This document shows positions 1,807 through 5,595 of a stretch of DNA of 34,339 nt, piece after piece. The position numbers were made by a program, and so were the translations under genes. Numbering within the stretch: the first letter of the stretch is position 1; each line of letters begins with the position of its first letter. The stretch is from a virus. Under the pieces are notes generated by a model, which was not told the DNA's origin, did not search any database, and saw nothing but the letters and a program-made list of their open reading frames with translations. The stretch is from IMG/VR virus record IMGVR_UViG_3300023049_000356, positions 1 to 34,339 of that record; one strand, 5' to 3'.

Positions 1807-2040
1807 TTATATTCTAAACATCGCACTTCTAATTTTCATTTCACGTTCTTCATTTTCTTCAATAAATTCAACAGCAATTTGCTTTTCAAATGGTGTTAAT
1901 TCAAATGATTCAGTATATCCTATACCTTTATGGTAATGGGATATTATAACACAATCCTTAACCAGTTGTCTAATCTGACCCTCAAAACTCTTTAACAGTT
2001 TATTAAGCTCTGTTATTCCACCGATTCTGAGGGTGTCATA
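1807..2040 (-). CDS. gp51-like baseplate hub assembly protein, probably made by frameshift from gp26
   Basis: In the -1 frame relative to gp26 the minus strand is open from 2085 to a TAA at 1809-1807. The sequence looks authentic: ELNKLLKSFEGQIRQLVKDC is followed by VIISHYHKGIGYTESFELTP and an acidic C-terminal helix ending SAMFRI. Small proteins with this pattern (I-S-x-Y, Y-x-E-x-F-x-L-T-P-x-E) lie after gp26 in T4-like marine phages and are named gp51 there; this is a remembered resemblance. No ATG, GTG or TTG exists anywhere in the open frame. The overlap with gp26 contains six T in a row (2045-2040), where a P-site TTT could slip back one base. A gp26-gp51 fusion made by -1 frameshifting is therefore likely; a non-standard start or a base error are alternatives. 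The start given is the first codon after the slip. Confidence 0.6.
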   Translation of the reverse strand, partial: YDTLRIGGITELNKLLKSFEGQIRQLVKDCVIISHYHKGIGYTESFELTPFEKQIAVEFIEENEEREMKIRSAMFRI

Positions 2041-2972
2041 AAAAACGTAATTGGGTTTAATAACGTTGAAATATTTCGTTCGTGGTTACACTTTGTATTA
2101 AGACATTTTACAGTGTAATCAAAGTTAGTACCCCATTCAACAGAATCACCTAATTGTTCATTTAACTCTTTTTTAAGTTTCACAGGAAGACCTCTGGCCC
2201 ATAGTGTGAGTTTTTCACGATTTGTTTCATCATCAACTGAAACAATTGCACTTGCTAATAGAAATGAAACATAATCAGTCATATCATCTAAGTTTAATGT
2301 TTTTTCATCATTTTGAAATTGATATGATGCTACTGAACTATCCAATTTAAGTGGAGTCAATTGTACCCTTTGGCCATTACTTAATGTACCTGAATATTTT
2401 GCAAATTCATCATCATCTACATTGACAGTATTGTTCTGTATAATACCTTCAAGGTTGATATCATATGAATGTTCCTGTGATTGTTTATTTCTTAATGTTT
2501 TAAGTCGGGTTTTTACATCAGAACTTGTCATTGCAGCTTCATATGATATATTTTGTTTTTTGGCCTTATCTCTTACCTCTTCCAAAAATTCAGTAACAGC
2601 CAAATCATTTTTTCGTTTTTGTTTTTCTTCACATACTGGACATCTGGTGTTTACTTGATATGTTCCACCATATGAAACTACACGTAAACATGCAAGGAGA
2701 AAGTCCACATCCCTTCCCAATAATCGTAATGGCTTATTAACTTCAGGTATACAACGTTTAAATACTCGATCTATTGCCTCACCAGTGAATAGAAATTCCG
2801 GTGATCTTAATGATATTTCATCAATTGTAGTCATTGGGAAGATTTCCAACTCACCATTAACCACATTTTCGTCAATCTCACCATCCATATAGAACAGACC
2901 CCTTGATGGGATTCTGAATCGTCTTCCCGGAATTCGGATTTTATCCATTATTGAACTTTCATTATTAGTCAT
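2013..2972 (-). CDS. 26: Baseplate hub subunit gp26 (T4-like)
   Basis: The product has 319 residues, longer than T4 gp26 (208). The N-terminus (PGRRFRIPSRGLFY followed by an acidic stretch and ELEIFPMTTIDE) is typical of the T4 baseplate gp26 family. A cysteine pair at C111/C114 (CPVC) and a second pair at C290/C295 (CLNTKC) could together bind one zinc ion, bringing the two ends of the protein together. The ATG at 2972 is preceded by GAGGT and by an exact late promoter (3014-3007). The 3' end overlaps the gp51-like frame. Location on the strand opposite to the rest of the baseplate genes also occurs in T4. In T4, gp26 acts in assembly of the central hub. Confidence 0.75.
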   Translation of the reverse strand: MTNNESSIMDKIRIPGRRFRIPSRGLFYMDGEIDENVVNGELEIFPMTTIDEISLRSPEFLFTGEAIDRVFKRCIPEVNKPLRLLGRDVDFLLACLRVVSYGGTYQVNTRCPVCEEKQKRKNDLAVTEFLEEVRDKAKKQNISYEAAMTSSDVKTRLKTLRNKQSQEHSYDINLEGIIQNNTVNVDDDEFAKYSGTLSNGQRVQLTPLKLDSSVASYQFQNDEKTLNLDDMTDYVSFLLASAIVSVDDETNREKLTLWARGLPVKLKKELNEQLGDSVEWGTNFDYTVKCLNTKCNHERNISTLLNPITFFMTPSESVE

Positions 2973-3006
2973 ATCTTTATTTACCTCAATATTGATTGAT
3001 ACACCT

Positions 3007-3014
3007 TATTTATA
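3007..3014 (-). promoter_or_regulatory. T4-type late promoter for gp26
   Basis: Exact TATAAATA on the minus strand, 35 bp before the gp26 ATG. T4 late promoters consist of this octamer at -10, read by a phage sigma factor (gp55) with the sliding clamp. It forms a divergent pair with 3054-3061. Confidence 0.75.
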
Positions 3015-3053
3015 TCTGTGTATTAGTAGTGAAAAACGTAGTGTGGTTAGAAA

Positions 3054-3061
3054 TATAAATA
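3054..3061 (+). promoter_or_regulatory. T4-type late promoter for the tape-measure-like gene
   Basis: Exact TATAAATA 27 bp before the ATG at 3088. Together with 3007-3014 it drives divergent late transcription from a region of about 115 bp. Confidence 0.75.
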
Positions 3062-3087
3062 TAAGGATAAACCTTGGAAAATTATAG

Positions 3088-5595
3088 ATGCCTGAAGATA
3101 ATAACATGTTATTAAAGAAAATTGCTGATAGTACGGCAAGAACTGCCGATGCTTTGGCAAAGGGTAGAACTAAGGCTAAACCTGTATTTTCAGATGATGA
3201 TGAAGGTGGTAAAAAATCATCTGATCCACTATCAAAGGATATATTGTCAACTATAAAATCATTCAGACAGTTTAGAAAAGTTGCAGATGAAAACATCAAG
3301 TCACAAAAAGCCGCAATTGATAATCTTAAAGAAAGTAAAAAAGTACGCGAAAATCTTGATAAATTATCAGATGCATTTAAAGATGGCTCTGAACGTGGTG
3401 AAGAATTATCTAAGGTATATGATAAGAATAAGGCAGCATTTGACTCTCTGAATAGTACCCTTAAAGTTCACGGTATTAAATCTAATGAGTTAAATAAGGC
3501 ACTTTCTATGGCTGGTGGTGACATTGGAAAATTTAATGAAAAAATTGAAGGTATAGTTGGAACATTAGAATCAAACAGAAGTGGTCTAAAGAATGAATTA
3601 GATTCACTGCAAGATAGTTTCAGAACTGCTGCTAAAAGTCAAGTAGATGGTGCAAAGGCATCAATGTCAGGTATGGCTACAGGTTTAGGTACAGTACTTA
3701 AATCATTTAGTGATATTGGCCTTAGTACTATGGCCACTGGTTTTGATATTGGTTCTAACATGGAAGAATTCTCAAGTGATATGGGAAGTCTTATTAAGAA
3801 CTCAACATTAATGGGTGCATCACCACAAGAAGTTCAACAATTCGCAGCAAGAAATAGATCACTTCTTACAATGGCTGCGGGTGAAGCATTCACAATGGCA
3901 GGTGATGCTGCGGAGACTGCTAGAATATATGGTGATATGGTAAATAAAACTTTTGGAGTATCAGGCCAAGCACAATTAGATATGATTAGTAAAGGTATGG
4001 AAACATTATCCAATTTAGGTCAAGCAGTCACACCTGAAACATTTAATGCCTTTAATAATTCTATTAATCGAATGGCGAAAACATCAAACATGACCGCCGA
4101 TGAAATATATACACAGGTAAATGAATTATCAAAATTAGATGGTGTTAGGGGATTAGCTTTAAGTCTGGGACAATCTGCTAATACTGCTACATTTCTAACT
4201 GAATCATTCCTAAATCTACAGAAACAGACTGGATTAAATGCTGATGAATTTATGGAATATAGGAAAAAATTAGCACAAGAGCGAAATAGAACTGGTTCTG
4301 ATCGAGTTGTACAGGGTGCTATGACCGCACAATTAGCACAAAGTGTTGGTGGATTTAGTTCTGAAAATATTGGATTACTTGAACGCGGAATGGCATATCC
4401 AGAGTCATTAAAGGACGATCAACTTGCATTATTCGAAGAATTGAGGGTCCAATTAGGTAAATCTTTAGCTGAACAGCGACAGGAAGCACTTGAAAATGGA
4501 CTAACAGGAAGAGTTCAAGAATTAGATATTTTATCAAAACGTTCAAATGTTGAAGAGAGAGTAAGTTTACTTTCACGTGAGGCTTCGGGTGAAACAAAAG
4601 CAATACAGGATGCACAGGATGTGCGGGTAAAAGTAGCTGATGATGGTGCAGGTCCACTATTGGAAACTAATGCAGCATTGCGTGAATTTATTAATGGTTT
4701 TACAAACTCACCATTTGGTAAAGCCGCAGCATTTAGTGGTTTAATGACAGGTGCGGTAACGGCTGGTGTTGTTGCTGGTAATGTATTAACTGGTGGTGGT
4801 GGTGGATTAGCTAAGAGACTTCTAGGCGGGGGGTTGCTAAGGGGTGGACTTATAGCTGGCGTTGCAGTAGGTGCTTTTAAGGGTATACATGCTGTACAGG
4901 GTGCTATGACCACACAATTAGCAAAAAGTTTGGAAACTAATGCCGCATTGCGTAAATTTATTAATGGTTTTACAAACTCACCATTTGGTAAAGCCGCAGC
5001 ATTTAGTGGTTTAATGACAGGTGCGGTAAGGGCTGGTGTTACTGGTGGTGTTGCAGTAGGTGCTTTTAAGGGTATAAATAAGGTTTTACAGATGGACGAA
5101 AATGCACCAGCAATGGAGAAATTCTTAACTGGATTTGGCGAAATTGGTGATACATTAACATTTGGATATGCTAGTAAGGCTGGTGAATGGATTAGTGATG
5201 GATTAAGTAAAGATATAAATCAGGTCACGGGAAATCAGGATACTGAAAAGGTTAAATATAAGACAACTGATGTTAGTTTAGCACAACAATTAGCAAACAA
5301 ACGATCAAATGAATCTCAAATGCAACAGAAGTTACTTGCGGATGCAAATAAATTAGAAGAAAAGTTAAAACAGGAATCTGTTGATAATAATGAAACAAAT
5401 ATGGAGTTGGCCAAAGAGCAGAATTCAACGTTGGTAGCAGAGATACAACATGGTAATAATATTGCCAGTAAACAAGTCGGACTGATAGATAAGATCGTAT
5501 CTGACCAACCAAGAATATCTGTACTGACTGGTGGTTCTATGCCAACTAGAAGTTCAAAAGCTGTACGATTATCAAGTAAAAATAGGCGAGCTTAA
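3088..5595 (+). CDS. Probable tail tape-measure protein (gp29-like role)
   Basis: The product has 835 residues. About the first 175 are rich in Lys, Glu, Asp and Ser with helical, coiled-coil-like periodicity. The middle is helical and Ala/Met-rich. Residues about 525-665 are Gly/Ala-rich and hydrophobic (SGLMTGAVTAGVVAG, GGGGGLAKRLLGGG), as in tape-measure proteins that end up in the membrane. The C-terminus is again charged. The gene comes immediately before the gp5-like spike (3 bases apart), which fits a tail-interior role. DNA coding for residues 408-601 has a shortened second copy for residues 603-664, so the length has changed by internal duplication. No sequence motif proves the function; another tail-tube or hub-associated protein is possible. 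Confidence 0.55.
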   Translation: MPEDNNMLLKKIADSTARTADALAKGRTKAKPVFSDDDEGGKKSSDPLSKDILSTIKSFRQFRKVADENIKSQKAAIDNLKESKKVRENLDKLSDAFKDGSERGEELSKVYDKNKAAFDSLNSTLKVHGIKSNELNKALSMAGGDIGKFNEKIEGIVGTLESNRSGLKNELDSLQDSFRTAAKSQVDGAKASMSGMATGLGTVLKSFSDIGLSTMATGFDIGSNMEEFSSDMGSLIKNSTLMGASPQEVQQFAARNRSLLTMAAGEAFTMAGDAAETARIYGDMVNKTFGVSGQAQLDMISKGMETLSNLGQAVTPETFNAFNNSINRMAKTSNMTADEIYTQVNELSKLDGVRGLALSLGQSANTATFLTESFLNLQKQTGLNADEFMEYRKKLAQERNRTGSDRVVQGAMTAQLAQSVGGFSSENIGLLERGMAYPESLKDDQLALFEELRVQLGKSLAEQRQEALENGLTGRVQELDILSKRSNVEERVSLLSREASGETKAIQDAQDVRVKVADDGAGPLLETNAALREFINGFTNSPFGKAAAFSGLMTGAVTAGVVAGNVLTGGGGGLAKRLLGGGLLRGGLIAGVAVGAFKGIHAVQGAMTTQLAKSLETNAALRKFINGFTNSPFGKAAAFSGLMTGAVRAGVTGGVAVGAFKGINKVLQMDENAPAMEKFLTGFGEIGDTLTFGYASKAGEWISDGLSKDINQVTGNQDTEKVKYKTTDVSLAQQLANKRSNESQMQQKLLADANKLEEKLKQESVDNNETNMELAKEQNSTLVAEIQHGNNIASKQVGLIDKIVSDQPRISVLTGGSMPTRSSKAVRLSSKNRRA
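4309..5077 (+). repeat. Condensed internal tandem duplication in the tape-measure-like gene
   Basis: Three blocks recur in the same order. 4309-4345 matches 4894-4929, 4660-4770 matches 4930-5040 (111 bp with about 3 differences), and 4861-4887 matches 5050-5076. The second set therefore looks like a copy of 4309-4888 (580 bp) that has lost its interior and shrunk to about 184 bp, placed 5 bp after the original. Reading frame is kept throughout. Confidence 0.85.

Follow-up and report, generated by a model that had tools for sequence, protein, structure and literature searches.

A gp26-like gene of a T4-related phage, a probable tail assembly chaperone gene with a probable programmed -1 frameshift

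The slip sequence of the tail assembly pair G/GT of phage lambda is GGGAAAG. Genes 26 and 51 of phage T4 are reportedly two forms of a tail chaperone, and several T4-like groups are said to keep frameshifting. The G-T frameshift is conserved save in T4, and in lambda the short form is abundant and the long form is scarce (PMC5009743). Tail chaperone genes of T4-like phages were reportedly identified by Vladimirov, Gautam and Davidson (2022, doi 10.1016/j.virol.2021.11.003), and in this work, as paraphrased in PMC12846349, poly-T runs are the -1 signals in T4-like genes for the short form of the tail assembly chaperone (TAC), TAC-N. In the TAC gene of Pseudomonas phage Adele and the Vandenendeviridae a GTTTTT motif is conserved, the -1 frame is uninterrupted, and the extension is annotated as a gene of its own (PMC12846349). 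Here we describe a locus in a 34,339-nucleotide stretch of viral DNA (IMG/VR record IMGVR_UViG_3300023049_000356, positions 1 to 34,339; hereafter the window) that very probably encodes the TAC pair of a phage related to T4 and probably large. In this phage the long form, TAC-NC, would be made by programmed -1 frameshifting with the help of a stem. The locus shares with the T4-like TAC-N/TAC-NC pairs a PF12322 short form, a long form with a C-terminal domain, which is predicted here, and the reported poly-T -1 slip site, but it has a G ahead of its six T. T4 itself has two divergent genes whereas the window phage has a single gene with a predicted frameshift. Sequence homology between lambda G/GT and the window gene was not detected, and the window differs in having a stem downstream of the run and a PF12322 protein that is zinc-finger-like. 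The arrangement in Adele and the Vandenendeviridae is alike, but they belong to another virus family. The sequence-only reading of this DNA knew of no report of such a frameshift for gp26/gp51, and in this it was wrong. Since frameshifting has already been reported in T4-like phages (Vladimirov et al. 2022), the window is a well-supported further example and not a new kind of system.

The gp26-like gene is on the minus strand at 2972-2013 and codes for TAC-N, a 319-aa protein in which two Cys motifs resemble zinc fingers. In Pfam it matched PF12322 (E 4.5e-9, 36.7 bits, cut-off 24.5), and this was the only family above cut-off, so there was no match to a lambda-type TAC family. Among the phrogs it matched phrog_150 (baseplate hub, E 9.7e-9), and its match to phrog_25860, which is labelled 'tail assembly chaperone', lacked significance (E 0.07). 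Sequence searches of the PDB gave no match. Directly downstream of the frameshift locus, at 1009-1755 on the same strand, a RuvC-like Holliday junction resolvase is encoded (phrog_159, E 8e-11).

The 3' end of the gp26-like ORF reads AAC CCA ATT ACG TTT TTT ATG ACA CCC TCA GAA TCG GTG GAA TAA. The six T at 2045-2040, in the gp26 frame ACG TTT TTT ATG, had been singled out as a slip site and are borne out by the sequence, as is the -1 frame, which is open from 2085 after a stop at 2088-2086 and reads YDTLR once slipped. This frame (2085-1807, minus strand) ends with a stop at 1809-1807, and its residues 16-92 (2040-1810) form the extension, TAC-C. The fusion predicted from the slip site, TAC-NC (2972-1810, minus strand), would be 388 aa long, comprising gp26 residues 1-311 and a further 77 aa. 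The figure of 77 codons, given earlier as lying beyond the overlap, is correct when counted from the slip site, but only 67 of them are wholly past the gp26 stop. Similarly, the claim that the -1 frame has no start codon holds for ATG, GTG and TTG in the first 82 codons but not for the rest, where ATG occurs twice, at 1839-1837 and 1821-1819. The two codons are residues 83 and 89 of 92 and are too near the end of the frame to initiate a useful protein. An open frame of 67 codons arose by chance in 0.44% of Markov sequences with the local composition and therefore the -1 frame by itself is no more than suggestive; chance is ruled out because the arrangement is conserved in about 50 relatives. 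Another overhang that has no start codon, the antisense ORF at 4355-4657, was taken as chance and sits opposite the 835-aa gene discussed below. The canonical X XXY YYZ heptamer is absent in the window, which has G TTT TTT. With a G ahead of the six T, the P-site tRNA would end up mispaired if the two tRNAs slipped in tandem, and the pairing-compatible route in the window is the slip of a single P-site tRNA on UUU, which is the only one that pairs fully.

When viral contigs were scanned with the single protein no relatives were found, and an alignment of 11 sequences was too diverse to serve as a query. Sub-group alignments used as queries gave about 90 further loci from viral contigs, and once duplicates had been removed the -1 type, in which the -1 frame is long, was represented by 52 distinct loci. 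The sequence-only reading had named the T run, the -1 relation and the missing start as the features to look for in related phages. The -1 relation and the run recur, an in-frame TTT-TT(T/C) being present inside the overlap in 51 of the 52 loci; some relatives carry an ATG at the overlap. The base ahead of TTTTTY is G in the window and L023 and T in the other loci of the 51. The sole -1-type locus lacking an in-frame TTTTTY, L039, has GTA CTT TTT TCA near the gp26 stop, which is six T in another phase. Phe-Phe pairs elsewhere in the relatives' genes show mixed codon use. Among large phages, TTT TTT or TTT TTC occurs near the end of gp26 in XacN1, Atu_ph07, RAS14, Cassandra/PA5oct, RaK2, 121Q, XaC1, Phosso and SCTP-2, and in these the -1 frame runs 173-224 nt beyond the gp26 stop. 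The -1 extensions of the relatives are alike in length and sequence pattern, and the arrangement is also present in Aeromonas phages, Rhizobium phages and a cyanophage, whose -1 frame is annotated as 'baseplate hub assembly catalyst', a name used for T4-type gp51. Public records split off or truncate the extension in 121Q (L006:3696-3905), Atu_ph07 (L002:3945-4067) and cyanophage Sf-FS3 (L121:2199-2390), and the long form is missing from the annotation of all three.

The closest loci, namely, the window, L023, L024 and L026, were compared at the protein level. Among these four the extension has a pN/pS of 0.27-0.36, which is similar to that of the gp26 part, and the window extension is 65-69% identical to the other three, with a pN/pS of 0.32-0.36 in these three comparisons. 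Directly after the run the -1 peptide is YDTLRIGG in the window, L023 and L024 and YDALRVGG in L026, whereas upstream of the run it is not conserved and stops break that frame within 20 codons. Thus, to judge from these substitutions, the -1 frame evolves as protein, and the beginning of its conservation at the run (YD[TA]LR) points to the T run or its immediate vicinity as the place of the frame switch. This bears on the possibility that the downstream frame belongs to a gene of its own with an independent start, either by re-initiation or from a non-standard start codon. Such a gene would explain why 121Q, Atu_ph07, Phosso, L036 and L069 have an ATG at the overlap and why GenBank annotates small separate ORFs there in some relatives. 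However, most of these ATG codons are downstream of the slip run, where the conservation starts, the window has no ATG, GTG or TTG in the first 82 codons, and start codons are entirely absent from the -1 frame in PA5oct/Cassandra. In addition, T4 gp51 has the corresponding extension fused to a gp26-like domain. We therefore consider a separate gene very unlikely.

A stem is predicted downstream of the run from folding and covariation. Its 5' arm, ACCCTCAGAAT, is at 2024-2034 on the minus strand with its first base 5 nt past the slip run, which is within the 5-9 nt range for stimulatory structures, and its 3' arm, GTTTTGAGGGT, is at 1978-1988 on the same strand; together they form 11 bp. L023 and L024 have this stem in common with the window, L026 shows two double-compensatory changes in which A-U is replaced by G-C (pairs 6-62 and 15-53), and in XacN1 the corresponding position is taken by an 11-bp stem with another sequence. 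For the 70 nt that follow the run, the mean folding z over 51 loci is -1.85, compared to about -0.1 to -0.35 for upstream controls, and z was below -1.5 in 31 of 51 downstream windows vs 32 of the 255 controls taken upstream (p=2e-12 by Fisher's test, a value that is indicative only because the loci are related). The mean z was -1.80 when the codons of the -1 frame were shuffled synonymously, and for the window none of 150 synonymous shuffles reached the native stability. Among the 45 loci with a stem of at least 6 pairs, 28 have it starting at position 6, 7 or 8, with 5 to 7 nt between it and the run. The stem is common but not universal, because a minority of the loci are without it.

The same fusion would result if the slippage were transcriptional, with an extra base put into some of the mRNAs at the T run, and the fact that the T run is the conserved element agrees with this. 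The run, however, is short, at six or seven T, and its last base is often C, and a stem that is 5-7 nt downstream and survives synonymous shuffling fits ribosomal pausing, so that slippage by the polymerase is very unlikely. That a sequencing or assembly indel or gene decay split a single ORF into two frames has practically no probability, because, although homopolymers are error-prone and the record is a metagenomic contig, the arrangement recurs in about 50 distinct loci, including those of the isolates 121Q, RaK2, PA5oct and XacN1. Programmed -1 frameshifting following the logic of lambda G/GT, as originally suggested for this locus, is thus upheld by the run, the stem, the -1 relation, the length of the product and the -1 conservation, all of which recur in the relatives.

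The relationship to T4 gp26 and gp51 is direct. PF12322 matches T4 gp26 (208 aa) over its full length with an E value of 8.8e-64. In T4 gp51 (249 aa) the match covers residues 1-201, with an E value of 3.9e-52, leaving 48 C-terminal residues. Since both proteins belong to PF12322 they are paralogues, gp51 having an added C-terminal part. The label 'gp51-like' given to the window -1 frame is apt, because T4 gp51 is the paralogue of gp26 and its extension resembles that frame. On the other hand, the suggestion that the frameshift joins two T4-type hub-assembly proteins has to be replaced: what is added would be a C-terminal domain, so that the one chaperone also has a long form similar to gp51. 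For T4 itself we rejected a tandem arrangement in which a frameshift links gp26 and gp51, the two genes being divergent on opposite strands. A profile of 51 extensions matched the tails of gp51 proteins with a best E value of 5.7e-5 (Z=1000), where shuffled controls reached 0.022, and matched the extensions of the +1 group described below with a best value of 4.2e-9; T4's own gp51 gave 0.25 and thus the link between the extensions rests on the gp51 family. An earlier profile built from 10 fusions missed the gp51 extension and the larger set found it. The alignment of the fused family profile with gp51 extended over 221 columns and stayed colinear through the slip point (hhalign single-comparison E 3.3e-10), and the window extension alone matched the gp51-type profile weakly (E 0.005, Z=1000). 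A further hhalign comparison with the gp51-type profile is not counted as independent, two sequences being in both profiles. According to a 2010 review (PMC3004832), T4 gp51 is needed for assembly, is absent from the virion and has no known function, and being essential yet not in the virion fits the role of a tail assembly chaperone. In the record of an Acinetobacter phage the homologue of gp26 is already named as a tape measure protein assembly chaperone.

The sequences show the anatomy of the locus and its conservation, selection at the protein level in the -1 frame, a stem that is conserved as well, and the homology to T4 gp26/gp51. The mechanism that we propose is as follows. Ordinary translation would give TAC-N, while a minority of ribosomes would slip one base back at UUU UUU (2045-2040), the stem-loop about 5 nt downstream promoting the slip, and would produce TAC-NC with its added C-terminal domain. 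By analogy with lambda, numerous TAC-N molecules would coat the tape measure protein and the few TAC-NC would bring in tube subunits. The slipping and its rate, the chaperone role and the partners are what we infer, a tail assembly chaperone working as in lambda being the most likely account. The gene order in Listeria phage LIS04 is tail tube, gp26, tape measure, and in Rhizobium phage IC12 the relative of the gene adjoins the tail tube gene. In the window, an ORF of 835 aa at 3088-5595 on the plus strand is divergent from the gp26-like gene and contains repeated segments and segments rich in Gly/Ala. It gave no firm family match, and its position is the one feature that makes it a tape measure candidate; neither family searches nor comparison with RaK2 ORF088 supported that assignment.

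Other loci of the family take different routes. L010, L013 and L084-L115 form a sister group with a homologous extension in the +1 frame and apparent +1 (or -2) frameshifting; their sites are mostly TTY TTT CGN, where the P-site tRNA would move from UUU to UUC, and AAT CCC AGT in a subset. L073 has tandem PF12322 copies (1326-2381 and 2384-3271) with the extension in frame in the second copy, and L074, L075 and L079 are similar. These tandem copies are apparently a second case, besides T4 26/51, of duplication replacing frameshifting. We put forward, tentatively and as a possibility that falls short of being likely, that one chaperone family reaches the same short and long output by a -1 slip on U6-7 with a conserved stem in the window and in most of its large-phage relatives, by an apparent +1 slip in Listeria- and Streptococcus-phage-like members, and by duplication at least twice. 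The general idea has already been published and therefore the gain here is in breadth and detail. For many large phages the annotation shows the long form split or not at all, and the conserved slip site with its stem is a compact and testable predicted frameshift signal. The findings support a role as tail assembly chaperones for T4 gp26 and gp51, which have long been called hub-assembly proteins with unclear function. If the several routes are real, the gain, swap and loss of recoding signals could be followed in this family as a natural series.
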